A stretch of 64,000 nucleotides of DNA. It comes from Brevibacillus composti. GTDB lineage: Bacteria > Bacillota > Bacilli > Brevibacillales > Brevibacillaceae. This document shows positions 34,118-50,586 of this stretch, piece by piece. The translations under genes were made by a program, and so were the position numbers. The stretch covers positions 2,839,501 to 2,903,500 of the forward strand of contig NZ_CP066308.1 in assembly GCF_016406105.1 (NCBI RefSeq), in the 5' to 3' direction. The notes below the pieces were generated by a model. The model was not told the origin of the DNA and did no database searches. It was given only the letters and a program-made list of their open reading frames with translations. Each line of letters starts with the position of its first letter. Within the stretch, counting starts at the first letter, position 1.

Positions 34118-34166
34118 ACGATGCCCCCACGCGGAATCGAACCACGAACTGATCATTACGAGTGAT
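34118..34166. repeat. attL: orphan 3' half of tRNA-Thr
   Basis: This 49-bp copy is identical to 50538-50586. On the minus strand it reads from the anticodon loop to the 3' end of the tRNA. No 5' half adjoins it. Confidence 0.92.
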
Positions 34167-34188
34167 GCCCGTTAACAATACGATACCT

Positions 34189-34283
34189 AAACGTTGATAC
34201 TACGCGATTTATTTCGTTCCTCAACGTTCATTTTACGCAAAGTGTAGCGTACATTCAAGCGGAACATGTACCGATCATTCAAC
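34189..34283. promoter_or_regulatory. Left integrase arm-type sites
   Basis: AAACGTTGATAC at 34189-34200, GCAAAGTGTAGCGTACATTC at 34237-34256 and a TGTACCGATCATTC motif near 34267 each recur near the right end (50517-50528, 50477-50496 and about 50427) in the same orientation. Their position just inside each core site is that of arm-type sites for a tyrosine integrase. Confidence 0.6.
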
Positions 34284-34348
34284 CGGTGGCCCATCCGTTT
34301 TTGCACAAAAAAAGACCCCGCCAGCATTGAGCCGGTCGGGGTTCGTTG

Positions 34349-34804
34349 TTACTGACGGTACATCACTACGCGATCCAATATGAGGTACGCCTGCCCATCG
34401 TTCATGGACGCCACGATCACGCGGTCGCCCGGCTTGAGTACGTCCTCGAACGTGAGTTCAACGTAGGCGTGGCGGTATTCCGTGATCGGATTGCCCTCGA
34501 CCATATCGTCCGTATCGAGTCCGTCGCGTTCGATCTTGTCTCCGAGGTCGCGCTCCGCCAGTTCCTCATGCGTGATCGTTACGATGCGTTTGTGCCGCGT
34601 CAGGTGTTCGGCCACTACGAGATCGTCCGCTTCGAGGTCTAGCGCCATGTTGTCGATACGGATGCGGAGGTCGGGCGGCGGGGAGACGACGGTGGCGAGT
34701 TCCAGGCGGTCAAATCTGTTGTATCCGATCCTGGCGATCATTTGTTTCAGTTGGCTAACCCCGCTGCCTTCGAGTCGTGTCATCCTACTCATCCTCCCTG
34801 TCAT
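34349..34804 (-). CDS. DUF2577 tail/baseplate protein
   Basis: This 151-aa protein ends with KPGDRVIVASMNDGQAYLIL before DRVV, the hallmark of DUF2577 proteins of PBSX-like tails (XkdR region). The middle is charged and the family is usually encoded close to baseplate genes. Its ATG overlaps the tape measure stop by four bases (ATGA) with AAGGAG 7 bases upstream; a later ATG at 34783 is also possible. No other baseplate gene follows: the element ends 180 bases on. Confidence 0.78.
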   Translation of the reverse strand: MTGRMSRMTRLEGSGVSQLKQMIARIGYNRFDRLELATVVSPPPDLRIRIDNMALDLEADDLVVAEHLTRHKRIVTITHEELAERDLGDKIERDGLDTDDMVEGNPITEYRHAYVELTFEDVLKPGDRVIVASMNDGQAYLILDRVVMYRQ

Positions 34805-36615
34805 GCGAGCGCTCCTTGGAGTTCGCGGGCCAGTCGGTACGCAATACGCTGGATGTCCGCTTCTTCTCTAACGGTCAAGCCGTTCACCGTAACGTTAACA
34901 GTGGGAGCACCGCCACGACCACCGCCGCCCGAATACTCCCGGTTTTCTTGCGCGGTCAAGACGCGTTCGCCTTTGTGAAGTCTCGCTTTTACGCCATCCC
35001 TAGGCACATACTCAATCCCATGGTAGAACGGTTTTTCTGGCCCTTCTTCGTCCGGAACCGACAACGTGAGCGGAGCGGGTACGAGTAACGCGCCAAACTT
35101 CGCAGGCATCGGCGGGCCGTGCATGACCGGCTTCTGCTTGTTGAGGAAGTCATACGCCTTCTTGTAGCCTTCGCTCACGTAATCCTTCGTCAATGCGACC
35201 GAATTAAGCGCTGGCATCCCGTGCAGAATCGCTTGACCGATTGGATTTTCCTTCATGCCGTCGAGAAATCCGGAGATCATCGACGATGCAATCTGACTGC
35301 CAATTCTGAGTCCGGCTTTTCCCATTTCCGGAGCCACTGTTTCCAGTCCGTCGAGGATTGTCTTCGTAACTCGTCCCGTCGCTTTTTCGAGTTGCTCGTT
35401 ACCCTTCCGGTCGTACCACTCCGAGAAGGACTTCGTAAGGTCTTCGATGATAAAGGCCACTTTAGCATGAATATCCGGCAGACTGTTAAACGTGGAATTG
35501 GAGAAGAAGTGACGGTCAAGGTAGTCCCAGGCTTTCTCTGCGGACGTTAGTAATCCGTCAAATCCTCCTGCCAATAGTCTCGCGCCACGTTCAGTAAAGG
35601 ACCTGAATCCCGGCCCTTCCAGCCACTTGTTCGCGTCAATAAGTAACGTCTTGATTTCCTCCAGGGCTCCCGTTCCCATCTTGGCGAGAGAAGCAGAGAC
35701 GTTGCTTTTGAACATGTCCCATTGAGCATTCGCAGTCTTATTGACTCGTGTCACAAATTGTTGCGTATACCCCATGTCATTGAGGACTTTATCGAGCGCA
35801 GTGATCTTTTTCTCTAGCGTGTCAGCTCCCTTGAAGGCTTTCTTTAACAAATTGCGAGGGATATCGAAACGGTCCTGGATACTCACAAGGTCGTCAGAGA
35901 GGGCTTCCCTTAAGGCATAGGCCGCCCCTTCTGCGCCCTGCAACGGTTTTGAAAGCGCCAGTCGTTCGGAAATATCGGTGAGTTTATCGATATGCTTGAG
36001 GTCCTTTGTCAGCGGCAAGTACGCTTTCCCCATCGTAAGGTAGTCGGATTCCGACAAGGTACTCGCCAGCCCCTTCTTGTAGAGCATATCGAAGAGGTCG
36101 GCCGCTTTTTTCTGATCGTTAACAAGCGCCTCTAGCGTGATTTTATCGGTCTCCATACGGGCGGCCCCGCCGATAGTGGCCGTCAGGAAAGAATCAGTCG
36201 CGCGATACAGCCCGTAGCCCGCCGCCAATCCGACAACCCCGCCGATGGCCGATTTCAGCCCGAGGACGGCCCCTTTAGCCCTTGCCGCGCCACCCGCGAT
36301 CCCGTCAAATGAATTGCTTACGTTCCTATTCGCTGATGAGAACCGGTTGAACTCCCCTCGTAAGCTACCGGTGGTATCACGGAAAGCTGTCATTGAACGC
36401 TTCAAGAGGCCCACAGTATTGTCTGTAGTTAGAAATGACTTTTTCAGAGCTTCCGTAGATTTTCCAGTAAGGTCTTGAATATCCGTAGTCTTTGCAAGCA
36501 TCCTACTCAACTGGCTTAAAGATTGATCCATTTTGTTTATTTGTGAAGTTGCACGTTTCGTCGGCGCGGTCATGTTATCGATCAACTTTAGCCGGGCCGT
36601 TAAATCGTATGCCAT
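34801..36615 (-). CDS. Phage tail tape measure protein (short)
   Basis: This 604-aa protein starts MAYDLTARLKLIDNMTAPTK, the usual opening of tape measure proteins. It has a coiled-coil N-terminal third, a hydrophobic AGYGLYRATDSFLTATIGGA segment, a long helical centre and the typical end RLHKGERVLTAQENREY with a Gly-rich patch and NVTVNGLTVREEADIQRIAY. Tape measure length sets tail length, so it implies a fairly short tail. The start at 36615 has an AGGTG site and overlaps the upstream gene by 41 bases. Confidence 0.85.
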   Translation of the reverse strand: MAYDLTARLKLIDNMTAPTKRATSQINKMDQSLSQLSRMLAKTTDIQDLTGKSTEALKKSFLTTDNTVGLLKRSMTAFRDTTGSLRGEFNRFSSANRNVSNSFDGIAGGAARAKGAVLGLKSAIGGVVGLAAGYGLYRATDSFLTATIGGAARMETDKITLEALVNDQKKAADLFDMLYKKGLASTLSESDYLTMGKAYLPLTKDLKHIDKLTDISERLALSKPLQGAEGAAYALREALSDDLVSIQDRFDIPRNLLKKAFKGADTLEKKITALDKVLNDMGYTQQFVTRVNKTANAQWDMFKSNVSASLAKMGTGALEEIKTLLIDANKWLEGPGFRSFTERGARLLAGGFDGLLTSAEKAWDYLDRHFFSNSTFNSLPDIHAKVAFIIEDLTKSFSEWYDRKGNEQLEKATGRVTKTILDGLETVAPEMGKAGLRIGSQIASSMISGFLDGMKENPIGQAILHGMPALNSVALTKDYVSEGYKKAYDFLNKQKPVMHGPPMPAKFGALLVPAPLTLSVPDEEGPEKPFYHGIEYVPRDGVKARLHKGERVLTAQENREYSGGGGRGGAPTVNVTVNGLTVREEADIQRIAYRLARELQGALA

Positions 36616-36961
36616 ATTTTTCACCTGCCTTTCGATAGACATCCGCTTCAATCCGCTCGTCCGCCCGGCCAATCGCAAGCAACGCCTTCAATATCGACTC
36701 GCGAACCTTCCGTACAGGCCGAGCATGCTCCGGGTACTGTTTCCGCAATGCTGCCAGCCGTTCGGCTCCTCGATAGACTTCGGCTAGCTTCTGCCCATAT
36801 AGCGAAAGGTTTTCGTCATCCTGGCGTTTTAGGTAGGCCGCCAGCTTGCGGAGATTTCGGAAGTCCGACGGCTGAAACTCCGCCATTCCGTTCAAAGAGC
36901 TGTCTAGGCGGTCGAGCTCCGCACTTGCAGCCGCGATGAGTTGGTTGATATCGGCACTCAC
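36575..36961 (-). CDS. Hypothetical protein between terS-like and tape measure genes
   Basis: This 128-aa helical protein (MSADINQLIAAASAELDRLD at the start, IRFNGPAKVDR at the end) sits where tail assembly chaperones lie in phages, directly upstream of and overlapping the tape measure gene. I do not recognise its sequence, and I see no programmed frameshift site. The GTG at 36961 has GGAGG 7 bases upstream. Confidence 0.6.
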   Translation of the reverse strand: MSADINQLIAAASAELDRLDSSLNGMAEFQPSDFRNLRKLAAYLKRQDDENLSLYGQKLAEVYRGAERLAALRKQYPEHARPVRKVRESILKALLAIGRADERIEADVYRKAGEKYGIRFNGPAKVDR

Positions 36962-36963
36962 CG

Positions 36964-37404
36964 TCACTCCTCCCCGTTCACCATTTCGGCCAATTTCCGA
37001 ATCTCGGCCGCGATCTCCGCGTCGGACTTACGCGGTAACTTCGATTCGCTCTCATTTTCGTACAGATGGCGCTCGGTAATTTCGCCTTGGAGCTTGTACC
37101 ACAACTCGATAGCTTTGATCCTGGGTTCCGGCATACGGATGAGTTTCAGCAGAGCCGAATCGACTTCGCTGCTATAGGCGTGGAGCTTATCGCGCGATAC
37201 CATGCGGTGGTATTCATTGAACTCCGGGTTCTTCATCCACTCGTACAGCGTCGATTTTGCGATGCCAATTTCTTCGGCTAGTTGGTCTTTGGTCATTTTT
37301 TTGCCCTCGGACAGTTCGCAAAACTCATTCGCTACGAGCAACTGCGCCGCCCGCCGTTGCTGGTCGGTTAGTCCACGCCCCACGTCGGATCGTCGTTTTG
37401 TCAT
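36964..37404 (-). CDS. Probable phage terminase small subunit (phBC6A51 HTH type)
   Basis: This 146-aa protein has a helix-turn-helix near residues 40-60 (MTKDQLAEEIGIAKSTLYEW) and a C-terminal helical region, like phBC6A51-family small terminases that recognise pac sites. No large terminase gene is present in the element. PICIs of Gram-positives often carry only the small subunit to redirect a helper's packaging motor. GGAG lies 8 bases before the ATG at 37404. A general DNA-binding protein remains possible. Confidence 0.6.
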   Translation of the reverse strand: MTKRRSDVGRGLTDQQRRAAQLLVANEFCELSEGKKMTKDQLAEEIGIAKSTLYEWMKNPEFNEYHRMVSRDKLHAYSSEVDSALLKLIRMPEPRIKAIELWYKLQGEITERHLYENESESKLPRKSDAEIAAEIRKLAEMVNGEE

Positions 37405-37416
37405 ACCCATCTCTCC

Positions 37417-38007
37417 TTATATCAGGTGTTCAATCTCGCGGTAACGACGCCATGCGGCGTCTAGTAACGCTTGGTACGCTTCGGGATCGTTTTTTAAGCG
37501 TTCGACCTCCGCTTTTATCGCGGCTTCTTGGACGTATGGTGGCTCCTCGCTCTTGTGGTTGATTCCGTCCTTCCACGGCGACCGGTTTATATTCCGGACA
37601 AAGTGGTTAAGCATCCGCATTTCCCGCCTGGTGTCGATCTCATCCTCGCGTCCTTCCTCGATAGCCTCGTTGATTTTGTCCATCGTATGCAGGGCTCTCT
37701 TCACGCTACTACCGATCAGCCCGACGTTAACCCCGACGCTCATGCTCGCCAGCTTCGCCGTCTCCCGGTACTTCTCTAATCTTGAAGTGTCCACGCGAAC
37801 TAGCGATCCGGCAGCGATAACGGCCGCATACTGCACCGCGATCTTGTAGAACGGGGCCAACTCTTCGGCCAGGATGATGCCGAGCGGAATGGGTACGAAA
37901 TTCTCCGGAGGCTCCGGCGGCTTCCCTTCCGCGATCCGAGCGGCCGCGACCCGTTGCCTCAGTTCCTCCGTCCTAGCCCGAATATCTTCGATTGATTCGA
38001 ACGCCAT
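37417..38007 (-). CDS. Hypothetical protein, helical (196 aa)
   Basis: The product starts MAFESIEDIRARTEELRQRV and ends RRYREIEHLI. It is mostly helical, with a mildly hydrophobic centre (FYKIAVQYAAVIAAGSLVRV). I do not recognise it. Its start overlaps the stop of the tiny membrane protein upstream, so translation is likely coupled. Confidence 0.6.
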   Translation of the reverse strand: MAFESIEDIRARTEELRQRVAAARIAEGKPPEPPENFVPIPLGIILAEELAPFYKIAVQYAAVIAAGSLVRVDTSRLEKYRETAKLASMSVGVNVGLIGSSVKRALHTMDKINEAIEEGREDEIDTRREMRMLNHFVRNINRSPWKDGINHKSEEPPYVQEAAIKAEVERLKNDPEAYQALLDAAWRRYREIEHLI

Positions 38008-38117
38008 CATTCACCCTCCCTCAGTCGGTTCCATAACGTCACGCCCACGGTGGCCGCCATTAAAAATCCGGCCATCATGCCCGCGAAGAATGCGGCCGGT
38101 ATCAGTGCGATTTCCAT
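38007..38117 (-). CDS. Tiny membrane protein (36 aa)
   Basis: The ORF MEIALIPAAFFAGMMAGFLM then AATVGVTLWNRLREGE has GGAGG 6 bases upstream and one membrane helix. Its TGA overlaps the ATGATG start of the next gene. It resembles small phage membrane proteins such as holin-like peptides only in size. Confidence 0.6.
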   Translation of the reverse strand: MEIALIPAAFFAGMMAGFLMAATVGVTLWNRLREGE

Positions 38118-38170
38118 TCGTTCGCCTCCGTAAAAAAGTAAAGCGCCGCCCGTTTGGACGACGCTCAGAC

Positions 38171-38422
38171 CTATTCGTATCGATTACCGAGTACATCGCG
38201 TATATGGACATAATCGAGATACCTTTGCTTCATTTTGACGTATCTGGCTGCGTCCTCTGGATTCTTCGTTTTTAATGCTTGATCGTGCATCGCTGCTAAT
38301 TGACCGACGTTTAACCTCTCGCCGTCTACAGAAACAGTCTCCAGGTCAATTCCAGTAGTCATTTCTACTACTACTGTGTCGCTATCAATAAAGGTTTTAT
38401 TATCAATCGTACAAATTCTCAC
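38171..38422 (-). CDS. Hypothetical 83-aa protein
   Basis: A GTG start with GAGGAGGAG upstream opens an 83-aa ORF: MRICTIDNKTFIDSDTVVVE to RDVLGNRYE. It has a beta-rich first half and a helical second half with LAAMHDQALKTKNPEDAARY. I do not recognise it. Confidence 0.6.
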   Translation of the reverse strand: MRICTIDNKTFIDSDTVVVEMTTGIDLETVSVDGERLNVGQLAAMHDQALKTKNPEDAARYVKMKQRYLDYVHIRDVLGNRYE

Positions 38423-38464
38423 TGTTTCTCCTCCTCGGAAAGTGAAATGAATAAAGACGCCGGA

Positions 38465-39364
38465 TTACTCCGACGCCTGACTTCCTGCTCTCAATTGTTC
38501 GATAGTGCGAGTCATACTACGCCATCTTTCGGCAAACTCGCGCTGCTCTTTTTCGCGTTGCTCCTCCGCCGCTCTGGCTGCTTTAGCTTGTGGAGTATCT
38601 TCTGGATGAACGTAGTCATCCGGCTTCAAATCCGGTTTGTCAGCGAAAAATTCTTCCGGCTTGTTCAAATAGCTGGCGTATTCCCTTCCCAGAGTTTCCG
38701 TCATGCTTTCAACTACTAATCCGGAAAAGAGAGAGCCCCTTTCGATCATCGAATCAGCGAGATCCAAAATTTGTCTTGCTTCCCTCGCGTCATCACTCAG
38801 AGAAATTTGATCTAGTCGTTCAAACATATCGCCGAGGATCGCCCTGTATTTCGCACTTTCTGTTCCTGCCGATTCCAAGATAGGGGAGGCGATTTGCTGG
38901 AACTCGTCACGAACGCGAAATGCGAAATATCTATCGTCTGCTGATTTCACATGTTTTTGAATAAACGCTTCGACTTTCTGTTTGGCTGTTTCTGCGCGAC
39001 TGGTAAGCATCAGCTCGGTCTTTAATGCCTTTAACTCGTCCTCGAACCTCTCCAACTTTACGGCATCGGGCTTCTTAGCTTTTGCGTATACGATTGCGTC
39101 AGCGCCTTCTTTAGCTTTTCTCAGCTCCTCCATATATACTTGTTTCAGTTTGTATGCGTCCTGCAAAAACTCGATCCCGTGTTTTTGTTTTAACGCGGCC
39201 ACGGCTTTAGTTCTTCCAATTTCTGACAACTCGCGATTCCTCATAATTTCGCCCATTTCGGCTTGGACCTTTCTTTTCCGTTCCAACGCCTCCGAGGCTG
39301 TGAGCGATTCAGCGATACGTGCCTTATCAATGTGCGAGCGAATTTGTTGAATAGTTTTTGCCAT
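38465..39364 (-). CDS. Coiled-coil hypothetical protein (299 aa)
   Basis: The protein starts MAKTIQQIRSHIDKARIAES and is almost wholly helical and highly charged, with long coiled-coil stretches and an acidic/Ala-rich tail (EEQREKEQREFAERWRSM). GGAGGAG precedes the ATG. A scaffolding-type or regulatory role could be imagined, but I see no signature. Confidence 0.6.
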   Translation of the reverse strand: MAKTIQQIRSHIDKARIAESLTASEALERKRKVQAEMGEIMRNRELSEIGRTKAVAALKQKHGIEFLQDAYKLKQVYMEELRKAKEGADAIVYAKAKKPDAVKLERFEDELKALKTELMLTSRAETAKQKVEAFIQKHVKSADDRYFAFRVRDEFQQIASPILESAGTESAKYRAILGDMFERLDQISLSDDAREARQILDLADSMIERGSLFSGLVVESMTETLGREYASYLNKPEEFFADKPDLKPDDYVHPEDTPQAKAARAAEEQREKEQREFAERWRSMTRTIEQLRAGSQASE

Positions 39365-39400
39365 ATAGAATCTCCTCCAAAAATTGATTTTGTTTCAGTA

Positions 39401-39856
39401 TTAAATCAGCGCCACAACCGTACGCATCTCCGGCTCATCGACCGGCCCCGAAATCCCATCGCGAATCAACCCCGCCAACTGGCGGACGGCCTGGCGGATT
39501 TCCGCCCGCTTTATGTCGATGGTCACATCGTTACCGTACCGGACGGCCCCGCGCAGGATCACCGTTGCAATGCGGAGGTCGGCTGCGATAGAGAGATACC
39601 GGGCGCAAAGCAGCCGTTCCCGGCTCCCGGAGTCATCGTAAGAAACTCGCGGCATGTGACCGGTGACGTCCGGCTTCCTCTCCGGCCTGGCCGGTTTGAG
39701 ACGGTGCCAGCGCTTGCGAAACTCGTCCTCGTAATCACGGAAGGTATCCGCGATCATGCCGGACTGACGCGGGAACTCGTTGCGTAACCGTTCGTCATCG
39801 TTAACCATCGTGTATAGACGTTGTGCCTCCGCTAGTAGTGCGCGCGCCTGCTTCAT
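39401..39856 (-). CDS. Hypothetical 151-aa protein
   Basis: The protein MKQARALLAEAQRLYTMVND to PEMRTVVALI is helical and Arg-rich. Its ATG overlaps the stop of the cold-shock-domain gene by four bases, so the two are coupled. I do not recognise it. Confidence 0.6.
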   Translation of the reverse strand: MKQARALLAEAQRLYTMVNDDERLRNEFPRQSGMIADTFRDYEDEFRKRWHRLKPARPERKPDVTGHMPRVSYDDSGSRERLLCARYLSIAADLRIATVILRGAVRYGNDVTIDIKRAEIRQAVRQLAGLIRDGISGPVDEPEMRTVVALI

Positions 39857-40194
39857 CGGATCACCTTCACGTTGACGGCTTCCGGACTCTTGCCGCCTTC
39901 CTTCACGTCAAAGCAGATACGCGAGCCGGAACGGAGCTCTCCGCTGATTACGTTTCGCGCATGGACGAATACGCCACATACGGTAAAGCCGAATCCCTTC
40001 GCGTCGTTGAACCATTTCATCTTTCCGCAGCGCTGGCCGTTGGCTGGCGGCTGTTTCGGCTCATGGCGCGGACTTACGAATCCGGTCGACTCGATCTCCG
40101 GGAAGTAGTCCGGTTGGTCCCACGTCGATACGCGTACCCTTCCGGTGGCGCGTTCCTCAAACGACGGTGCTCGTTCGGCTACTTGCTGGCTCAC
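39853..40194 (-). CDS. Cold-shock-domain protein with N-terminal extension
   Basis: This 113-aa protein ends in a cold-shock domain (about 55-113) with GKMKWFNDAKGFGFTVCG (RNP1 KGFGF) and VFVHARNV (RNP2), so it should bind single-stranded RNA or DNA. The first 50 residues, with Arg and Pro, are an extra extension not seen in CspA-type proteins. It starts with GTG, AAAGGAG upstream. Phages and satellites carry such proteins occasionally. Confidence 0.75.
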   Translation of the reverse strand: MSQQVAERAPSFEERATGRVRVSTWDQPDYFPEIESTGFVSPRHEPKQPPANGQRCGKMKWFNDAKGFGFTVCGVFVHARNVISGELRSGSRICFDVKEGGKSPEAVNVKVIR

Positions 40195-40349: not shown

Positions 40350-40565
40350 CTATTCGCGTGCAACATCCACGCCGAGTATCCGGCGCATCGACCGCTTCCT
40401 CTGATTTGGTACGCGATACTGGACCGCGATCCGCTTGCCTGCGCGGTAATACCGGGCCATTGGCTCAATGTCGCTGTAGTAGCGGCGGATTCGCGCCATA
40501 ATGCCGGTGTCTTCGGTGTAGGCAGCGAGATAGTCCGGGTCCAGGCGCCAAAGGGCGTTGTTCAT
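40350..40565 (-). CDS. Hypothetical 71-aa basic protein
   Basis: The ORF MNNALWRLDPDYLAAYTEDT to MRRILGVDVARE is basic in its second half. The ribosome binding site is weak (AAGAG abutting, GAGGTG farther up). The 155-base gap downstream (40195-40349) holds no visible feature. Confidence 0.45.
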   Translation of the reverse strand: MNNALWRLDPDYLAAYTEDTGIMARIRRYYSDIEPMARYYRAGKRIAVQYRVPNQRKRSMRRILGVDVARE

Positions 40566-40645: not shown

Positions 40646-40858
40646 CTAAGCGGGAAGTTCCCGGATTTCTCGTATGCGCTCGGGTGTGAGTCCAAACGCG
40701 GCTACTATCCGAATTGCCAGGCCACGGCTGACGTCCTTCCTGTTCCTCTCAATCCCGCTAATCATCGAGTGATGCACTCCGATCTTGCTCGCAAACTGTT
40801 CTTGCGTCATTCTCTCTAAAGCCCGCAACTTGATCACAATTTCACGGTCAATAACCAT
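40646..40858 (-). CDS. XRE-family helix-turn-helix regulator (70 aa)
   Basis: This is a minimal Cro/CI-type domain: VIKLRALERMTQEQFASKIG then VHHSMISGIERNRKDVSRGL. GGAGG lies 7 bases before the ATG at 40858. It follows the CGNR-like gene on the same strand. Confidence 0.8.
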   Translation of the reverse strand: MVIDREIVIKLRALERMTQEQFASKIGVHHSMISGIERNRKDVSRGLAIRIVAAFGLTPERIREIRELPA

Positions 40859-40937: not shown

Positions 40938-41864
40938 CTATATAGCATGGTTGTCCAGACTGTGGCGATGATTGCGATAGTTCTGCCATTCCCGCGCCCG
41001 CATCCATTCCGCCGTCACGTCCCGGACATTGTACGTTACGATCTTGCCCGGCTCCTCCGCCTCCCGCCACATCCCCCTGGCTCGCGGCCTATGTCGTTTG
41101 CCCTCGTACTCCGACTCCGGAACCCATTTCAGCGCCCGCCACCCGTTCCTCTTGCCGCGCTCCATCTTCGCGTCCTTCGTCGGCGTTTCCGAATAGTGCG
41201 GAATCTCCCGCAGTTCCACCGGACTATAGAACGGGTATTCGAGCATATGGCGCTCCTGGTCCCGCCTTGTGCGCGGATCGCCCGTTCGCTGGATTCGCTT
41301 CCGTATCTTATCTCGGTATCGGGCGCATTCATCGCTACACGTTTTCCCCATATTGTTCCGACTTCTATCAAGGAAAAACCATTCACAGCCTTCGCAACGC
41401 TTAACCCGGCGGCGATTACGCGGCCCGATCCGTAAGTGCCCGTAATGGCGCAAGACCACAAAGTCGGCGGCGCCTGACCCGATGTACGGCCGCTCCTCCG
41501 CCGCGTATTCGTCCGGCACCCTCGTTTGTTTGAGGCCGCGCGCGTGATCCTCCGCCAGTATGTAGTCCGCCAGGTGGTCGAGCAGGGACGGGACTGAGGG
41601 GCGACCGTCAATGAGCGTATGAGCCGACGTGCTGACCGCAAGAAGCGGCTTGTCCGTGACTCGTTCCCACCGATCCTCTGCCTTAACGTGTTCGAGCTGC
41701 GCCCACTCTTCCCCGGCGAGGTCATCCGTTATCTGGCGGACGAGTCCGATGCGGGAGGCGAGCGGCGTTTCCGAGTGCTTGCGGTAGTGTGCGCGCTTGT
41801 GGTTCGGGAAGCCCCGGCGGGCGATGGCGGTGAGCCCTGCGTGTTGAATCGCTTGTTTATTCAA
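40938..41864 (-). CDS. CGNR-like zinc finger protein
   Basis: This 308-aa protein has, near residues 155-195, KRCEGCEWFFLDRSRNN then KTCSDECARYRDKIRKRIQR, which matches the C-terminal CGNR zinc finger pattern with four Cys. The rest is not recognised; the C-terminal third is rich in Arg and Trp. It probably binds nucleic acid. A TTG start with GGAGGTCGTGGC upstream opens it. Confidence 0.6.
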   Translation of the reverse strand: MNKQAIQHAGLTAIARRGFPNHKRAHYRKHSETPLASRIGLVRQITDDLAGEEWAQLEHVKAEDRWERVTDKPLLAVSTSAHTLIDGRPSVPSLLDHLADYILAEDHARGLKQTRVPDEYAAEERPYIGSGAADFVVLRHYGHLRIGPRNRRRVKRCEGCEWFFLDRSRNNMGKTCSDECARYRDKIRKRIQRTGDPRTRRDQERHMLEYPFYSPVELREIPHYSETPTKDAKMERGKRNGWRALKWVPESEYEGKRHRPRARGMWREAEEPGKIVTYNVRDVTAEWMRAREWQNYRNHRHSLDNHAI

Positions 41865-42037: not shown

Positions 42038-42118
42038 TGAGCGATATCAGTATGGTTCTCGTTATAATGGCTATGGTTCTCGTTATAATGGCTCTTGTTT
42101 AAAGATGGTTCTTGTTAA
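42038..42118. repeat. Iteron-like array 1 beside winged-helix gene 1
   Basis: After TGAGCGATATC (42038-42048) come repeats of ATGG(T/C)TCT(C/T)GTT with ATGG at 42052, 42067, 42073, 42088 and 42105, giving 15-21 base spacing. The same TGAGCGATATC plus repeats occur at 44374-44434 after winged-helix gene 2. This is a candidate replication origin or autoregulatory site. The rest of the 41865-42037 gap shows nothing. Confidence 0.6.
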
Positions 42119-42155: not shown

Positions 42156-42515
42156 TTAGCTACTGTTTCGTTCCTTATTCCCGAATTGCAGCTCAGATTC
42201 GGGCGCGATGGTATACACGTTATTTGCCCACGTTCCGGGACCCGGTTCTCTCCGCCTCCGCACGCTGACTATCGGCTTTCCATTCCACCTGTATTTAACA
42301 AGTCGACTGACGCGGCGACTAGCGCTTTCCCGCGTGATCCCTAGCCTTGCCGCTATCGACTCCATCGACGGATAGCACTCGCCATTTTCGTCCATGTAGG
42401 CGGCCAGGACGCAGAGGGTTTGCCACCTCTCCGCGCCCATGTCCGCGATGAGTCCGGAATGTATCGCGTCAACGTACGTTTTATAGAAAATCCGCGTTTC
42501 CTTTTGTTCGTCCAT
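42156..42515 (-). CDS. Winged-helix protein 1, possible replication initiator
   Basis: This 119-aa protein has KETRIFYKTYVDAIHSGLIA, MDENGECYPSMESIAARLGI and VSRLVKYRWNGKPIV, the layout of the initiator N-terminal winged helix of RepA_N-like proteins. A paralogue lies at 44435-44887. Iteron-like repeats lie just past its 3' end. ATG at 42515 has AGGAG 9 bases upstream. A repressor role is the main alternative. Confidence 0.6.
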   Translation of the reverse strand: MDEQKETRIFYKTYVDAIHSGLIADMGAERWQTLCVLAAYMDENGECYPSMESIAARLGITRESASRRVSRLVKYRWNGKPIVSVRRRREPGPGTWANNVYTIAPESELQFGNKERNSS

Positions 42516-42543
42516 TTCCCGCAACTCCTCCGTCCTAATTCGT

Positions 42544-43377: not shown

Positions 43378-43731
43378 ATGAGTAAGATAAGCCTGTTTTC
43401 AGCTATTGGTGCTGACGCAGTAAAAAGCGCAACGGAATCCGATCCTTACGACAAACCGACCATCTACGTTGTCGAGATTTATCTAAAGGACGTTTTAAAA
43501 CGTCGAGGAATAAAACAAAAAGAACTCGCTCAAATGACTGGATTACGACCAAACGCAATAACAAACCTATGCCGCGGCTACAATGAACGAGTAAGCCTCG
43601 ACCACATTGGGCGGATTGCTACTGCATTAGGGATCACAGACATCTCTGAAATTATGAGGCTCGTAGAGTACGAAGAGGCCGATTTCTTCAACATGTACAA
43701 TTCGATTCACCGTGATGATCCCGAAGAGTGA
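43378..43731 (+). CDS. XRE-family repressor-like protein (117 aa)
   Basis: This protein has a helix-turn-helix at about 44-72 (VLKRRGIKQKELAQMTGLRP, NAITNLCRGYN) with a 35-residue N-terminal extension. It is one of only two plus-strand genes of appreciable size in the element, both regulator-like. Its 3' end overlaps the DUF3102 gene by 25 bases tail to tail. Confidence 0.8.
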   Translation: MSKISLFSAIGADAVKSATESDPYDKPTIYVVEIYLKDVLKRRGIKQKELAQMTGLRPNAITNLCRGYNERVSLDHIGRIATALGITDISEIMRLVEYEEADFFNMYNSIHRDDPEE

Positions 43732-44297
43732 CATATCTCCGTTCCCGTACGCACCTCGCGGATCGGCTGCGGCTGTTCCGCTATCGATTCGAGAGTATCG
43801 CGAAGGACTTGCGCGGATTCTTCCGCCCTCTGTCGCGCCTCCCTCTCGCGCTTCAACTCCGCCTTGACTTCGCGGAGCTCGCGGACGGTCATCTCGTCGA
43901 CCGTTTTGACTTCGCCGGTGGACGGGATTACGTGCGGGCGTTCGCGGTCTTCTGGTGAGAGTGTGGCGATCTCGTAGAGGGCGCGGAGACCGTGGTGTTG
44001 GTACGTGCCAACATCGCCCAACCCCTCGAAGACCGCGATAAATCGATGTGCCTGTGTTCTGTCAAAATCGACATGCTCCTCTAGCCATTTTATCCATCCG
44101 CCCGTTGACTCCCGTTGCTGCGCGAGCATGCGATCCTCAATACAGTCAGAATCGGTCTTGGCGTCTCTGACTTTCTTTAATCGCCTCCCAATCTCGAATA
44201 TAGCCTCGCCCGCGACTCTCTTGTAGGCGTTGATCTCAGCCGTGATTACTTGTAGATCGTTGGAGAGCGCGGCTTCCTGCTTGGCTTGCACATCCAT
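43707..44297 (-). CDS. DUF3102 protein
   Basis: This 196-aa protein has the DUF3102 core INAYKRVAGEAIFEIGRRLK, then GGWIKWLEEHVDFDRTQAHR and FIAVFEGLGDVGTYQHHGLR, followed by a charged coiled coil (VKAELKREREARQRAEESAQ). Members are found on phages and mobile elements; function unknown. GGAGG precedes the ATG. Confidence 0.75.
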   Translation of the reverse strand: MDVQAKQEAALSNDLQVITAEINAYKRVAGEAIFEIGRRLKKVRDAKTDSDCIEDRMLAQQRESTGGWIKWLEEHVDFDRTQAHRFIAVFEGLGDVGTYQHHGLRALYEIATLSPEDRERPHVIPSTGEVKTVDEMTVRELREVKAELKREREARQRAEESAQVLRDTLESIAEQPQPIREVRTGTEICHSSGSSR

Positions 44298-44373
44298 CAT
44301 TACCTCCCCTTTCTTCGCGTACATCTTGTCGCGTGATCGTATCCTTATTAATGACTGACCTCGCGAACGACAG

Positions 44374-44434
44374 TGAGCGATATCTTTTATCTAGTTTAAA
44401 GATGGCTCTTGTTTAAAGATGGTTATTGTTAGTG
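44374..44434. repeat. Iteron-like array 2 beside winged-helix gene 2
   Basis: TGAGCGATATC (44374-44384) is followed by TAGTTTAAAG, ATGGCTCTTGTTTAAAG and ATGGTTATTGTTA, with ATGG at 44402 and 44419 (17 bases apart). It mirrors array 1 in sequence and place. Confidence 0.6.
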
Positions 44435-44887
44435 TCAAGGAGAGCCATATACGGATCGACCCGTGTCGGCTCCGCTTGACATGGCTTCCGCCTCCCCACT
44501 AAATATCGCTAGCTGACTGACCGGCAGCACCGTATACCGCGTGTTATCGAACCGCTGACTCCCGTCCTCCCTCCCCTTCGTCGCGTGCACCAACGGCCGT
44601 CCCCGCCACCTGTACGCGAGCAGCGACTTGATCCGCGCCGCCGCTGTCTGCAGGGATACTCCGAGCCTGTGCGCGATCAACTCTTGCGTCGGATAGCACT
44701 CGCCGCGCTCGTCCATGAACGCCGCGATCACGCAGAGCGTCCGCCAGTTCTCGTCGCCAATGTCCGCGAGTAGTCCGGAGTGTACCGCGTCCACGTACAT
44801 CTTGACGAAGATGCGCGTTTCACGGCGTCCGGTTGTGACGGAATATTCCGACTGCGTTTCGATGGATACGAGGTTATGTTCGGTCAC
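44435..44887 (-). CDS. Winged-helix protein 2, paralogue of 42156-42515
   Basis: This 150-aa protein shares with its paralogue ETRIF-x-K-x-YVDA-x-HSGL, TLCV-x-AA-x-MDE-x-GECYP and LGV/I helix residues (RRETRIFVKMYVDAVHSGLL, ERGECYPTQELIAHRLGVSL). It starts with GTG, GGGAGG upstream. The N- and C-terminal ends are longer than in copy 1. Possible replication initiator or regulator. Confidence 0.6.
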   Translation of the reverse strand: MTEHNLVSIETQSEYSVTTGRRETRIFVKMYVDAVHSGLLADIGDENWRTLCVIAAFMDERGECYPTQELIAHRLGVSLQTAAARIKSLLAYRWRGRPLVHATKGREDGSQRFDNTRYTVLPVSQLAIFSGEAEAMSSGADTGRSVYGSP

Positions 44888-46064: not shown

Positions 46065-46168
46065 TGGGATACCCCCTGTTTCGATTCTTGCGCGACAATG
46101 ACGGCCAGCATAAGGCGGAGTTTCATGCGCAGCGGCATTTGACGCCACAAACGAGCCTTGACGTTCAT
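46061..46168 (-). CDS. Tiny amphipathic peptide (35 aa)
   Basis: ATG at 46168 has GGAGGTGGCC upstream and overlaps the previous stop by four bases; its own stop overlaps the next ATG by four. The product MNVKARLWRQMPLRMKLRLM then LAVIVAQESKQGVSQ is basic and amphipathic. Confidence 0.5.
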   Translation of the reverse strand: MNVKARLWRQMPLRMKLRLMLAVIVAQESKQGVSQ

Positions 46169-46449: not shown

Positions 46450-46521
46450 AACTTTTCCTCCCCTTTTTCGGAATGTTCCGTATTATTTGCTCGCGGGTCC
46501 TCCCCGGCTAGGGCGGCCGGT

Positions 46522-46857
46522 TCATCGGATCAGCACGATAAAATCGAAGTCGGCGGCCTCGGCCGTGCGTAGAAAGAACCGCTCGTAAAAGTCCCAGGCG
46601 GACATCGAGCGTAACTTGCCCACCACGCGCGGAATGTCTTCGGGGTCATCCGTCAACCCTCCGTAAGAATGGCCGGAGGTGGCGATGTAAAGGCCTGGCT
46701 CGTTCGTTGGGTCGACGGTCAGGAACGCAAGCTCCTCGCCGTCAACGAGATAGGCCGCGATGTCTGGCGCGATGAGGTAGCCGGGAAAACGGTCGGGGCC
46801 GAACTCGCGCTCGTAGTCGTCGGACAGGCGGAGCTTGATTCGCGGGAACTGCGTCAT
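46522..46857 (-). CDS. Hypothetical 111-aa protein
   Basis: The product MTQFPRIKLRLSDDYEREFG to DFDFIVLIR is acidic, with a beta-rich middle. Its ATG overlaps the upstream stop by four bases. Not recognised. Confidence 0.6.
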   Translation of the reverse strand: MTQFPRIKLRLSDDYEREFGPDRFPGYLIAPDIAAYLVDGEELAFLTVDPTNEPGLYIATSGHSYGGLTDDPEDIPRVVGKLRSMSAWDFYERFFLRTAEAADFDFIVLIR

Positions 46858-47057
46858 AGGGCGGTCCCCCTCTCGGCTCGTTCGCGTTCGATGCGTTCGT
46901 GAAGCGCACGTTTCCATTCGAACAGCGCGGCCAGCCTTTCAGATCGACCGGGAGTGCCGGGGCGGATCGCGAAGACTTCCGATACCTGGCGCGTGTAAAA
47001 AGCGATGGCGTCGACGGTTGAGAGCGTGGAGATGTCGGGGAGTTGCGGCGCGCTCAC
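46854..47057 (-). CDS. Hypothetical 67-aa protein
   Basis: I place the start at the GTG at 47057, which overlaps the stop of the 31-aa ORF by four bases (GTGA). The product MSAPQLPDISTLSTVDAIAF to RIERERAERGTAL has a helical, Arg/Glu-rich end. Not recognised. Confidence 0.5.
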   Translation of the reverse strand: MSAPQLPDISTLSTVDAIAFYTRQVSEVFAIRPGTPGRSERLAALFEWKRALHERIERERAERGTAL

Positions 47058-47149
47058 GGATGGATCACGCTCCTTATCGATTCTACCAGGGCGGAGATCG
47101 CGATGATGAGTTCGGAAAAGGTAGTGATCCATTGCGGGCCTTGCTTCAT
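47054..47149 (-). CDS. Tiny peptide (31 aa), first of the coupled operon
   Basis: AAGGAGG lies 10 bases before the ATG at 47149. The product MKQGPQWITTFSELIIAISA then LVESIRSVIHP has a hydrophobic centre. It would be the first gene made from the repressible promoter at 47251-47279. Confidence 0.5.
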   Translation of the reverse strand: MKQGPQWITTFSELIIAISALVESIRSVIHP

Positions 47150-47225
47150 GTGTGGATTCCTCCTTCAATCATTGAGAATTTGGGGGATTTGAGGTATAAT
47201 CGTGTTAACAATTCAACATTTCACC

Positions 47226-47290
47226 ATGTCAACATCTTGTGCATGATTTTATAATACCCCTCGCTGCACATGATGTCAACATGTTGTGCA
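47226..47290. promoter_or_regulatory. Operator region with strong minus-strand promoter
   Basis: ATGTCAACAT(C/G)TTGTGCA occurs at 47226-47243 and 47273-47290. On the minus strand a perfect TTGACA (47274-47279) is followed after 17 bases by TATTAT (47251-47256), so its -35 lies inside the second operator. The divergent XRE gene at 47311 is the likely repressor. Confidence 0.7.
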
Positions 47291-47310
47291 AGTTTTGGGA
47301 GGAAATTTTT

Positions 47311-47523
47311 ATGGCGATTCGGTGCCGTCTTGGCGAGATTATGAAGGAACGCGGTCTTTCCAATAAAGAAGTCGTTGAACTTACCGGTGTGAGTAGGAAT
47401 ACAATTACGTCTCTCGCATCCTCCGCGACCAAGCGCATCGACTACGATACCCTCGACGCGATATGTAACGGTTTGAAGATAACCCCCGCAGAGTTTTTCG
47501 AATACACTCCGGACAAAAAATAA
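47311..47523 (+). CDS. XRE-family repressor-like protein (70 aa)
   Basis: This Cro/CI-type protein has CRLGEIMKERGLSNKEVVEL then TGVSRNTITSLASSATKRID. GGGAGG lies 8 bases before the ATG. It is divergent from the operon of small genes and flanked by paired operator-like repeats. By position it is a candidate for the master repressor (Stl-like role). Confidence 0.82.
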   Translation: MAIRCRLGEIMKERGLSNKEVVELTGVSRNTITSLASSATKRIDYDTLDAICNGLKITPAEFFEYTPDKK

Positions 47524-47561
47524 AGCCGCTCCCTTGTAAATGGGACGGCTATTTTAAGTTT

Positions 47562-48176
47562 TCACCCTCCGGTTTCTAGTCGCGTTAATCTCTTCAAGCG
47601 TCTCTCAAATGATGTTTCTTCCTTTACGTTCTTTGCCATGGCCTCCTCAACGTTCTTTATTGCCTCCCGATAGCGACCCGTCCTCTCGTAGAGCAAGGCC
47701 AACTCCTTAAATGCTGGATAGTTGGGAAGCGCCTTCCATCCTTCCTTTTTCAATCCCTCATAAAAATCATCGTGAATGGAAATGTCTTTTTTCAAGTATG
47801 TTTCTAAATGTTCAAACCAAGACGAATTTTGCGACCAAAGTCTCTTGTACAACTTCCAGCGAGTCATGTAAATGTAATGAAGCTCGACAATATCAGAGGC
47901 CGATACCGCTTCTCGCTCCGCGAAATCTAACAATTGGAGTTTGAATTCGAGATTCATAACCCCCGACGCAAAAATTCTAAGTAAGCCTTGCCTCGTCATT
48001 GAAGTTGCAGCGATCTCCCTAATATCAACGTTCTCCTTACCACCATTAACTTCATATTCAAAAACACAACGACAATCCTCTCTCTGCTCCTCAGTTAGTG
48101 ACAGCCACCATTCCTCCAGTCCCAAACACCTTATATAGCCTTTCGGTTTCTTATTCAAGAAACGTTTCCAGAACAT
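47562..48176 (-). CDS. Hypothetical protein with TPR-like C-terminus
   Basis: This 204-aa protein starts MFWKRFLNKKPKGYIRCLGL. Its end has a tetratricopeptide-like unit (PAFKELALLYERTGRYREAI then KNVEEAMAKN). GAGGTG lies 6 bases before the ATG. Its lower G+C than its neighbours suggests a different source. Not recognised. Confidence 0.65.
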   Translation of the reverse strand: MFWKRFLNKKPKGYIRCLGLEEWWLSLTEEQREDCRCVFEYEVNGGKENVDIREIAATSMTRQGLLRIFASGVMNLEFKLQLLDFAEREAVSASDIVELHYIYMTRWKLYKRLWSQNSSWFEHLETYLKKDISIHDDFYEGLKKEGWKALPNYPAFKELALLYERTGRYREAIKNVEEAMAKNVKEETSFERRLKRLTRLETGG

Positions 48177-48381
48177 GAGAATCACCTCAATGGTTTATTC
48201 AACATGTCCACGGTCTTTCCTTTACTGATCATCTGCGCGAGCCGTATCAGCTTCACTAGTGTGTCGTCATCTAGTGTTAAGCCGACCGAGCCCCGAGTTT
48301 AAAAATATTGCGCGGATTTTTCGGGGGCCTGCCGACGGTGTTTCGAGGGGGTGCCGTGGGGGGATGCCGGGTCACGAAAAA

Positions 48382-48412
48382 GAGCGCCCTCATTGGGACG
48401 CCCCCGCCTTCT
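48382..48412 (-). terminator. Terminator of the serine recombinase gene
   Basis: On the minus strand GGGCGTCCC pairs, with one bulge, with GGGCGC and is followed by TCTTTTT; it overlaps the last codons. Confidence 0.5.
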
Positions 48413-48959
48413 TCAACGCGCGATATAACGTTGCCTTGCTAACGCCAGTTATCCGCTCGATATCCGGCACGGTCTTTTCCTTGGCGCGGTACAACTCGAT
48501 AGCGTGCGCCAGCTTCGCGTTCCCCTCGCCGTACTTAACCGGTCGACCGCCCTTCCTGCCACGTGCTCTCGCCGCCTCCAGGCCCGCTCTCGTGCGCTCT
48601 ACGATGATGTCCCGTTCCATCTCCGCCAATACCATGAGCATCCGAAACATGGCCTTTCCGACCGCTGTAGACGTGTCGATCTGATCGCGAATAGATACGA
48701 GTTCTATGCCGCGCCGATCCAGTTCCTCCGCCAACTCAAGCAGCCGTTTGGTGCTCCGGCCCAACCGATCCAGCTTGTAGATGACGAGCGTATCACCTGG
48801 GCGCGCGTAGGCCAACAGGCGTTCCAATTCCGGCCGGTCATCTTTCATTCCGCTAACCTTCTCGCGGTAAATCTCGTCGCAGCCAGCGGCCTTTAGCGCG
48901 TCGATCTGTAGGTCGAGCGATTGGTCCTGCGTTGATACACGAGCATAGCCGAGCTTCAT
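48390..48959 (-). CDS. Serine recombinase (resolvase/invertase family)
   Basis: This 189-aa small serine recombinase has the nucleophile Ser in MKLGYARVSTQDQSLDLQID (Ser9 region), the LDRLGRSTKRL motif, EMERDIIVERTRAGLEAARA, and a C-terminal helix-turn-helix (VPDIERITGVSKATLYRAL). It could resolve dimers or invert DNA. The region just upstream has res-like repeats. No invertible segment is obvious. Confidence 0.92.
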   Translation of the reverse strand: MKLGYARVSTQDQSLDLQIDALKAAGCDEIYREKVSGMKDDRPELERLLAYARPGDTLVIYKLDRLGRSTKRLLELAEELDRRGIELVSIRDQIDTSTAVGKAMFRMLMVLAEMERDIIVERTRAGLEAARARGRKGGRPVKYGEGNAKLAHAIELYRAKEKTVPDIERITGVSKATLYRALKKAGASQ

Positions 48960-48972
48960 ACCGGTTCACTCC

Positions 48973-49140
48973 GTTTCATTGTCGTATGACCATATTATAC
49001 CAATCGTATCACAAACGGTCAATTACGTTATTATGAAACGTTGAATATGATAACGAGTTATGAAACGACAGCAGGCGCGATATGTTATGCTGGCGTAACA
49101 TTTGGTCGGATCGTTTCGCAAATAAACGTTTATGATACGG
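48973..49140. repeat. res-like region upstream of the serine recombinase
   Basis: Imperfect inverted repeats built on GTTTCAT/ATGAAAC and CGTAT/ATACG occur around 48973-49016, 49026-49072 and 49110-49140. Three such sites upstream of a resolvase gene are the layout of a res site. The rest of the 48960-49364 gap shows nothing more. Confidence 0.5.
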
Positions 49141-49338
49141 GACCCCCTGAGTTTTCGGAGGGTGTACGCGCCGCGAGCGTGCAGCGGATGAAATCGCCTA
49201 TACCGTCCGGATTCGTTCACCAGGCAGACGGTCGCTCACCGTTACTTTACCACGTTAAACCACGAATATACTCGCGCTCTCTCGTCCGGACGGGATCGCG
49301 CAGGCCTCCCGCGCTTTATCGGACTAAAGCGTTATAAC

Positions 49339-49371
49339 AAAAGAAAACGCCAGCCCCCGAAGGACTAGCGT
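49339..49371 (-). terminator. Terminator of the integrase gene
   Basis: On the minus strand CGCTAGTCC pairs with GGGGCTGGCG and is followed by TTTTCTTTT, overlapping the last codons. Confidence 0.65.
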
Positions 49372-50375
49372 AGGAAATTGATCGGACTATATTTATCGTG
49401 CTGTCTCCGTATGTCCATGTCGTTCATTTGAACATACCGGCGAACCATCGTCATATCGTGATGACCGAGCAGTTTTTGCAATGAGTACGGATCACCGCCG
49501 TTCAAAATGTAAAACTTGGCGAAGGTATGCCGGAAAGTATGCGGCGTAACGCGAACGGTTGCGATATTCCCAGTCCGCCCGTACTCCTTAATGGCCGCCC
49601 TTATGCGCGTGGGATCAAGCTTATTCCCGTAGACGGTCGTAAACAAATACTCCGCATTGAGCTCGCGTACCTCCGCCAGCAGGCTTTGCAGCTCCTTTTT
49701 GGTACGGGCCGAGAACGGAACAGTCCGGCCGACGTTGTTCTTAGAGTTTGAGGCGCGAATATATAGTGAGCAGTTCGTGAAATCTACGTCCTCTATGCGT
49801 AGGTTGATAAGTTCGACGAGTCTAATACCGGTATCCAAAAACGTGAGCATCGCGCAGTAGTCCCTGAATCCGTTGTACGTCCGCTTGTCCGGTTGTTTCA
49901 ATAGCTTTTCAATTTGTTCGACCGTAAACGATTCAACCGTGTCCTTTTCTTCTTTGACGAGCCGAACCTTTTTGAACGGGTTCTCGGAGATATACCCCTC
50001 CGAAACCATGAAACTAAAGAATACCTTATGGTGGCGTAAATAGGTGTTGATCGCGCCAGGCGAGAGCCCCACTGTTTTCATCCGGTCCGGTATTCGCTCG
50101 TTCCCCTCGTACTGTCTCCGCTCTGATTGCATGTAGCGAACCCATCCGCGAATGACATCCGCCGTCACCTCTTGCGGTGAAAGCCCCGGATATTTCAAGT
50201 CGAGAAATTCGAGAAAGTAACGATGATACTTGTCGCGCAGGGCAAGCGTTCGCTCTGCCAGCCCCTCCGCCTCTTTTGCCCTCCGGTAGAGTCGATACAG
50301 CTCGTCCCATGAATACGAGACGCGAGCAGTATCCGCGAACGTACGTAACAGCTTTCGTTTTCCCTTTAACGCCAA
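49365..50375 (-). CDS. Tyrosine recombinase (integrase)
   Basis: This 336-aa integrase has an N-terminal SAM-like core-binding domain (about 20-130) and a catalytic domain with the first Arg in LDTGIRLVELINLR, HTFRHTFAKF (His-x-x-Arg), LLGHHDMTM and the Tyr nucleophile in RRYVQM. It lies 160 bases from the tRNA-Thr attachment site, on the same strand as the tRNA. The start is a TTG with a somewhat distant AAAGGGG. Confidence 0.93.
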   Translation of the reverse strand: MALKGKRKLLRTFADTARVSYSWDELYRLYRRAKEAEGLAERTLALRDKYHRYFLEFLDLKYPGLSPQEVTADVIRGWVRYMQSERRQYEGNERIPDRMKTVGLSPGAINTYLRHHKVFFSFMVSEGYISENPFKKVRLVKEEKDTVESFTVEQIEKLLKQPDKRTYNGFRDYCAMLTFLDTGIRLVELINLRIEDVDFTNCSLYIRASNSKNNVGRTVPFSARTKKELQSLLAEVRELNAEYLFTTVYGNKLDPTRIRAAIKEYGRTGNIATVRVTPHTFRHTFAKFYILNGGDPYSLQKLLGHHDMTMVRRYVQMNDMDIRRQHDKYSPINFLR

Positions 50376-50426
50376 AACAAAAACGCCCCTTTCCGTTGCC
50401 GCAGTAACAACGAATAGAGACGCATT

Positions 50427-50528
50427 GTGTACGGATCATTCTCGGACCATCCGCCTGATCACACCGTACATTTCCGGCAAAGTGTACGCTACATTCAACG
50501 AGGGCCAAACGGCTGAAAACGTTGATAC
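50427..50528. promoter_or_regulatory. Right integrase arm-type sites
   Basis: TGTACGGATCATTC near 50427, GCAAAGTGTACGCTACATTC at 50477-50496 and AAACGTTGATAC at 50517-50528 match the left set in the same orientation, in mirrored order from the core site. Confidence 0.6.
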
Positions 50529-50537
50529 AACGCAATT

Positions 50538-50586
50538 ACGATGCCCCCACGCGGAATCGAACCACGAACTGATCATTACGAGTGAT
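50538..50586. repeat. attR: repeat copy inside the intact tRNA-Thr
   Basis: Identical over 49 bp to 34118-34166. Here it forms the 3' half of a complete tRNA. Confidence 0.92.

Follow-up and report, generated by a model that had tools for sequence, protein, structure and literature searches.

A phage satellite integrated in tRNA-Thr of Brevibacillus composti with tail tape measure and spike-like genes

Satellites of the cf-PICI type are those with capsid-formation and packaging genes of their own (capsid, portal and terL). Gram-positive PICIs and SaPIs are islands of about 15 kb with a terminal integrase, divergent regulators, a replication module, terS and att sites at a conserved gene; they have no terL, portal or capsid gene, and their definition demands the absence of phage structural genes (PMC6092414). 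The first satellites reported with a tail tape measure protein (TMP) and chimeric tails are the PLEs (March 2026, Nature; PMC12987554). PLE11, PLE1 and PLE4 of Vibrio cholerae are integrated satellites that encode their own TMP and further tail parts, the tail assembly chaperone TAC and, in PLE11, also the baseplate hub BhuB, while a contractile-tailed helper supplies the rest; the chimeric tails of PLE11 are about 10 nm shorter (PMC12987554). The legend of Extended Data Fig. 10 in the same article mentions putative tmp genes in a sampling of cf-PICIs. The original prediction for the locus described here was of a PICI-like satellite in a lineage for which no described PICI was known, and a literature search outside which preprints and most subscription papers fell yielded no paper linking Brevibacillus to PICIs and none on satellites of Paenibacillus.

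The locus lies in a 64-kb stretch of the Brevibacillus composti genome (the window). The island occupies positions 34118–50586 and is bounded by identical 49-bp direct repeats at 34118–34166, the integrase-distal end, and at 50538–50586. The two copies are 16,420 bp apart, and an exact repeat of this length at this spacing rules out chance. The second copy lies within the intact tRNA-Thr(CGT) gene (50540–50613, minus strand), the sole tRNA that ARAGORN detects in the window, and spans the 3' 47 nt of that gene. The att repeats originally described, equated with the 3' half of the tRNA, are exact at the stated coordinates, and the total of 16.4 kb agrees. The empty tRNA-Thr site expected elsewhere in Brevibacillus is present, uninterrupted, in a sister species (G008), with 82% identity over the junction.

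A tyrosine integrase gene (49365–50375, minus strand; PF00589, E = 8.5e-32), with homologues in related islands, is located at one end. The same strand carries a serine resolvase/invertase (48390–48959; PF00239, E = 2.4e-47) and a TPR-like accessory protein (47562–48185; weak TPR match), a 54% homologue of which lies close to the end of a 30-kb region around a contractile-tailed prophage, G031. Two Xre-type HTH regulators on the plus strand, at 47239–47523 (PF13443, E = 2.5e-15; homologues across islands) and 43378–43731 (PF13443, E = 4e-13), oppose minus-strand genes and form divergent regulatory regions. There are two rep-like initiators on the minus strand, B (44435–44887; phrog_12720, E = 2e-45) and A (42156–42524; phrog_12720, E = 6e-44; 93% identical in the G009 island), each adjoined by iterons identified by repeat and motif scans (44385–44448 and 42051–42117, respectively). 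The window contains eight matches to ATGGYTCTYGTT with at most one mismatch, against 1.1 expected by chance over its whole length, and seven of them lie at 42052–42116 and 44402–44448. Between the two modules is a DUF3102 protein (43707–44324, minus strand; PF11300, E = 6e-8; phrog_1733, E = 1.7e-36). All three elements of the original prediction for this half of the island, the terminal integrase, the divergent regions with putative repressors and the duplicate initiator/iteron modules, are borne out. The initiators are small and of the HTH_36 type; no primase or pri-rep module was recognised in the window, and no homologue of Stl or xis was identified in the island.

The remaining genes are all on the minus strand. 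A CGNR-zinc-finger-like protein (40938–41864; PF11706, E = 1e-4) is 70–77% identical in three other Brevibacillus islands. Its gene occurs in satellite-like islands and served as our census marker; the protein has no match among 50,697 phage records, and its single-sequence scan gave a 10-residue match only. An Xre HTH protein (40646–40858) is conserved downstream of it, followed by a 71-aa conserved satellite protein (40350–40565; 86–92% in G009 and G011), a cold-shock-domain protein (39853–40194; PF00313, E = 5e-10) and a 151-aa conserved late-region protein (39401–39856; 60–73% in G009, G011 and G004). A 299-aa protein (38465–39364; 81% in G011, 69% in G004; pN/pS 0.16) is modelled with helices throughout (pLDDT 88.5). 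Its gene occupies the slot in which G009 has a major capsid protein, a position from which we guess that it might remodel capsids. A 197-aa helical protein (37417–38010; model pLDDT 91.8) can be aligned across the islands, and island maps place it immediately upstream of terS wherever both are present; by position, it is a candidate packaging partner. Fold searches of the PDB with Foldseek and VIA-align, extended to viral libraries for the 299-aa protein, gave no informative match for either. The predicted terS-like gene is confirmed as a small terminase subunit (36964–37410; phrog_7344, E = 8.9e-21; PF13022, E = 1.3e-27), 80–81% identical in G011 and G013, with a pN/pS of 0.15–0.18. Taken with the 299-aa, 197-aa, DUF2577 and CGNR genes, the range is 0.15–0.29, indicating purifying selection. 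In agreement with the original prediction, neither profile searches nor tblastn with phage references revealed terL, portal, capsid, sheath or tube genes in the island, and no lysis gene was recognised.

Downstream of terS lie a 130-aa protein (36575–36967; 52% in G011, about 31–33% in G004 and G013), the TMP and a DUF2577 protein, in this order within one operon. The 130-aa protein is a TAC candidate by position, and its alignments over all islands are too divergent to decide this identity. The TMP (34801–36615, open reading frame to 36678) matches phrog_1068 (E = 8e-12) and the TMPs of Brevibacillus phages, and is 604 aa long if translation starts with the ATG at 36615, or 625 aa long if it starts with an upstream TTG. 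The C-terminus of its family profile matches the diffocin TMP CD1366 (8v3w_B, E = 1.5e-10). The DUF2577 tail spike-like protein (34349–34804; PF10844, E = 1.7e-21) has a weak match to the diffocin Spike CD1369 (8v3w_C, E = 0.0055), and its start overlaps the stop of the TMP gene (ATGA), indicating translational coupling. For both tail genes, the sequence relatives of known structure are these diffocin proteins. Diffocin itself differs in being a tail that lacks a head, and genes for tube, sheath and baseplate are missing from the island. The tail module did not figure in the anatomy originally given for the island, of which it is the most informative part.

Since a TMP and a spike-like protein are encoded, structural genes are not absent and the island falls outside the strict definition of a Gram-positive PICI. 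We therefore reject the canonical PICI label, in spite of the size, the exact att repeats with an empty site in G008, and the similar anatomy: terS and a terminal integrase are present, terL, portal and capsid are missing, and the divergent Xre-type regulators and the initiator genes with iterons are putative counterparts of the PICI regulators and replication module. Besides the tail genes, the HTH_36-type initiators and the lack of a recognised pri-rep, Stl or xis set it apart from PICIs. The absence of capsid, portal and terL likewise distinguishes it from cf-PICIs, although some of its relatives (G009, L169, L170 and L171) do encode a major capsid protein. The part of the original prediction that stands is that of a terS-carrying satellite integrated in tRNA-Thr, which presumably depends on a helper; it is well supported by the existence of a whole family of att-bounded islands with a narrow size range at various sites. 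A close parallel is with the PLEs, as the island encodes a TMP together with a coupled partner tail component. PLEs, for which chimeric tails are proven (PMC12987554), live in hosts of another phylum and have other genes; the island combines terS, TMP and DUF2577 with a PICI-like anatomy, and a second, siphophage-type tail set occurs within its Brevibacillus/Paenibacillus lineage.

The relatives sought in other Brevibacillus genomes were found there and also in Paenibacillus: 18 further att-bounded islands occur in these genera and their relatives. The 19 islands measure 14.3–20.1 kb (mean 16.9 kb) and are inserted in tRNA-Thr, tRNA-Arg (two), tRNA-Pro, tRNA-Leu, tRNA-Ser or the 3' end of an ErpA/HesB-like gene. 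Their genes were counted with a simple longest-ORF caller, so that some small genes may be mis-called. The 20.1-kb island G370, in which FtsK-like and DNA-polymerase-like genes occur, is kept solely as a divergent possible member, and five genomes with TMP matches (G349, G178, G480, G543 and G654) were left outside the phage and satellite classes. In a census of 14 islands chosen by the CGNR gene, independently of the TMP, 11 encode a TMP and the other three (G123, L165 and L167) a tail-tip/fibre-like protein. Siphophage-type TMPs of 1142–1428 aa, accompanied by a second protein, are present in L164, L166 and L169. Fifteen of the islands were tested by tblastn with phage references: terL, portal, sheath and tube were absent from every one of them, and G009 alone had a capsid gene; large unlabelled island proteins were additionally scanned with PHROGs.

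Complete prophages of the G031 type, contractile-tailed and found in Brevibacillus, Paenibacillus and relatives, carry terL, portal, capsid, sheath and tube, together with a homologous TMP and spike and, in some, terS. They are the source or homologues of the TMP, DUF2577, some terS genes and the G009 capsid. The TMP is directly followed by DUF2577 in nine of nine satellites, whereas the two genes are 1.5–2.2 kb apart in nine of nine related phages; several islands (G009, G004, G013 and G133) lack DUF2577. The TMP tree requires four or more switches between satellites and phages. In it, the TMPs of G004 and G013 group with phage TMPs (support 100/99), while their CGNR proteins are about 71% identical to that of the window's island and the G013 terS is 80% identical, which argues that the slot was kept and its occupant replaced. 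TMPs are thus exchanged with phages while the backbone stays. A TMP pair from G153 and G133 (dN 0.08, dS 0.45) is under purifying selection. TMP peptide patterns gave no match in viral contigs.

The reading we favour, and consider probable, is that of an integrated satellite making chimeric tails on a contractile-tailed helper. The integrase would excise the element from tRNA-Thr, and replication would proceed from its own rep/iteron modules. The satellite TerS may then steer the TerL and procapsids of the helper to satellite DNA, whose 16.4 kb would be small enough for a putative reduced capsid. Expression of the late operon (terS, 130-aa gene, TMP, DUF2577) would allow its own TMP and central spike to be built into tails, with tube, sheath, baseplate and fibres supplied by a G031-type helper. 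In this way the satellite would determine how long its carrier tails are and which tip they bear, and would compete with the helper for tail parts. The presence of similar tail genes in about 20 relatives in Brevibacillus and Paenibacillus suggests that half-own, half-borrowed tails are probably built. A single query with the G031 portal gave no match in the host genome, hence no resident helper of this type was found. More tentatively, the lineage as a whole may perhaps be defined by an exchangeable virion slot that carries a tail core (ruler and central tip), with helpers switched by swapping the core. If so, the core would come from contractile or long non-contractile phages, the backbone would be kept, and the satellite would dictate the tail length and tip of the chimeric particles.

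The same genes could in principle serve interference, the TMP, with or without the spike, acting as a dominant-negative decoy that makes helper tails abortive or mis-sized and so shields the host; the satellite itself would leave in tails made wholly by the helper. Mobile-element defences that target tail assembly are known (Tai, PMC11364771; Rta in PLE11, PMC12987554), and the three census islands with a tip-like protein and no TMP would suit such a role. The TMP, however, is full-length, is under purifying selection, shares a late operon with terS and with the cognate tip component to which it is coupled, and is periodically replaced by intact phage versions, all of which suggests assembly-competent parts and not a poison; the PLE precedent is one of incorporation (PMC12987554). 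We therefore regard a decoy as unlikely. It is quite improbable that the lineage is best described as combining capsid formation with tail remodelling, taking up helper virion genes for capsid, ruler, spike or tip protein in whatever combination, with the window's island as one passing state and no specialised tail remodeller. The four capsid-bearing relatives, the siphophage-type sets and the islands with the tip-like protein alone all fit that description; the ruler is constant in the window's island and its nearest kin, and this is a broader framing of the chimeric-tail reading more than a contradiction of it.

A degenerate G031-type prophage that lost its head, packaging and most tail genes would also explain virion-type phage genes, and a complete 29.8-kb prophage (G286) has related int, xre, rep, terS, TMP and DUF2577. 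Against this, many islands of 14–20 kb with intact att repeats at different sites share this one small set of genes, the genes are under purifying selection, and TMP and DUF2577 are adjacent and coupled here yet separated in phages. The CGNR, 299-aa, 197-aa and 71-aa genes are conserved across the satellite lineage and were not found in G286, and the CGNR protein, as noted, is unmatched in phage records. A capsid, portal or large terminase gene, or relatives with a complete complement of phage genes in matching order, which the original prediction named as signs of a remnant, did not turn up for this island. Decay is accordingly very improbable and we reject it; purifying selection on the TMPs and their exchange with phages, on a backbone that is kept, point to a satellite lineage.

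The favoured reading, chimeric tails on a contractile-tailed helper, concerns a wide Gram-positive lineage, apparently unrelated to the PLEs, usually with a ruler that is most often coupled to a central tip protein. Its existence beside the PLEs suggests that satellites in general may take over tails, a strategy that would have arisen more than once. The roughly 20 variants present in soil bacteria, which between them have two tail types, provide material on tail length, helper choice and the blocking of helper tails via the TMP. Satellite TMPs, and with them the predicted tails, are not clearly shorter: the difference from G031-type phages is weak (mean 574 versus 627 aa, p = 0.07), and a comparison with 13 phage TMPs (p = 0.009) uses rows that are not independent. 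In one relative, L168, the TMP is split over two open reading frames.

The island (34118-50586) is bounded at both ends by exact 49-bp repeats, one copy of which lies within an intact tRNA-Thr(CGT) gene (50540-50613, minus strand). When its flanks are joined in silico, they find an uninterrupted match (82% identity) in the sister species G008, which makes this a genuine empty attB. The G+C content is 52.8 per cent in the island versus 55.7 per cent in the flanks.

From the tRNA end, the island encodes a tyrosine integrase, a resolvase, a TPR-like protein and divergent Xre-type HTH proteins, followed by two genes for initiator-like proteins (phrog_12720), each accompanied by iterons, and DUF3102. 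The middle part comprises a CGNR-type protein (40938..41864, minus strand), a small Xre protein, a 71-aa protein and a cold-shock protein. The late genes, all on the same strand, encode proteins of 151, 299, 83 and 197 aa, TerS, a 130-aa protein, the tape measure protein (TMP) and the spike-like DUF2577. Neither PHROGs and Pfam profiles nor tblastn searches with phage reference sequences turned up a terL, portal, capsid, sheath or tube gene in the island. The resolvase (48390-48959) shares 91% identity with its counterpart in the island of Brevibacillus strain G009, whereas the two integrases are only 37% identical; the resolvase gene has therefore probably moved recently.

The TMP open reading frame has 625 aa. 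Its likely start is an ATG at 36615, preceded by a plausible ribosome-binding site, giving a product of 604 aa. The reading frame matches phrog_1068 (E 8e-12) and TMPs of Brevibacillus phages, and the family profile matches the C-terminus of the diffocin TMP (8v3w_B, E 1.5e-10). The DUF2577 start overlaps the TMP stop codon (ATGA), and its product weakly matches the diffocin spike (8v3w_C, E 0.0055). By homology, the island carries the ruler of a contractile tail and probably also its central spike; the tube, sheath and baseplate that would surround them are missing.

Relatives were collected by a TMP search, each match then being boxed by exact direct repeats. The sites are tRNA-Arg for G009 (16,621 bp) and G011 (16,512 bp), tRNA-Pro for G318 (16,170 bp), tRNA-Leu for G632 (14,337 bp), tRNA-Ser for G613 (14,934 bp) and the 3' end of an ErpA/HesB-like gene, named from a reading of the att sequence, for G004 (16,695 bp), G013 (15,933 bp), G049 (18,479 bp), G187 (17,361 bp), G153 (16,572 bp), G133 (17,270 bp) and G653 (16,802 bp). 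G370 (20,085 bp) is a divergent, possible member. Exact repeats also bound G123, L164, L167, L168 and L170, giving 19 att-bounded islands (mean 16.9 kb, SD 1.3). The ErpA/HesB-like gene end is used repeatedly, by G123 and L168 as well; its repeats (56-106 bp, sometimes interrupted) restore the gene end. Gene order is broadly common (integrase, regulators, replication, CGNR, Xre, late genes), with terS and TMP at the far end in variable order; in G011 the block is flipped with respect to the integrase. In several islands (L107, L112, L113, L155/L156 of G653) the number of integrase genes is two or three, and they often lie in tandem.

The CGNR gene has no match among 50,697 phage records. Searches with it, independent of the TMP, yielded 14 islands or contigs, three of them from a viral contig collection. 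A TMP is present in 11 (the window, G009, G004, G013, G133, L164, L166, L168, L169, L170 and L171). The remaining three carry instead a 437-458-aa protein resembling the C-terminal part of a tail protein (G123, L145:11834-13156; L165:14459-15772; L167:14662-16038), a tail-tip or fibre-like product that is perhaps a host-range or adsorption modifier. L166 has a 707-aa tail protein, and these proteins resemble part of it. In L164 (14482-19029), L166 (14327-20733) and L169 (9893-15549), the same slot holds a siphophage-type TMP of 1142-1428 aa followed by a second protein; in L166 and L169 the latter is recognizable as a tail protein. A major capsid protein is additionally encoded in G009, L169, L170 and L171. 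These capsid proteins (L105 for G009) belong to the family of the G031-type phages, complete contractile-tailed prophages; the G009 gene occupies the position of the 299-aa helical protein in the window.

The TMP tree places the window, G009 and G011 in one clade, and the satellite and phage labels must change four times or more along well-supported branches. The G004 and G013 TMPs group with the phage TMPs G009b and G286, although their CGNR proteins are about 71% identical to that of the window. Judged from these sequences, the slot is retained and its occupant swapped. A decaying prophage does not predict a retained slot with an exchanged occupant, and the island is unlikely to be such a remnant. 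Purifying selection acts on every late gene compared, wherever synonymous sites have not reached saturation. TMP and DUF2577 touch or overlap in nine satellites; a gap of 1.5-2.2 kb separates them in nine phages or prophages carrying both, a set that includes contexts where terL or portal was not detected. We propose that the satellite would supply ruler and spike to chimeric tails otherwise built from helper parts, and that its TerS would divert packaging. The main rival is interference, the TMP acting as a decoy. In the Vibrio cholerae satellite PLE, the satellite TMP replaces that of the helper, and tail length drops by about 10 nm (PMC12987554). The mechanism proposed here matches those proven chimeric tails. 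This lineage is a Gram-positive counterpart, with its TMP-spike pair, its own satellite backbone and two tail types that are exchanged. Gram-positive PICIs are defined by having no structural genes (PMC6092414), which does not hold for the island, and genes of the cf-PICI class are absent; we therefore call the lineage a distinct variant of phage satellite.

Homologous terL, tube and sheath genes occur in prophages G031, G022, G038, G009b, G286 and G587, most of which also have portal and capsid. Their TMP and DUF2577 are homologous to those of the satellites, and the G009 and G031 capsids are 57% identical; such prophages are the likely helper type. The G031 portal, as a single query, has no match in the window's own genome, so a helper would probably have to arrive from elsewhere. 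The host has a further contractile-tail prophage of a different (G002) type (L074, G000:C1 about 1437000-1450000), in which terL, portal, capsid and sheath genes accompany a TMP of 720 aa. In G286, an element of 29.8 kb (G286:C3, L099+L100, joined 5164-35073) sits in tRNA-Leu and carries terL, portal, capsid, sheath, tube and TMP, together with int, xre, rep and terS related to those of the satellites; it may be an evolutionary link or represent a helper type.
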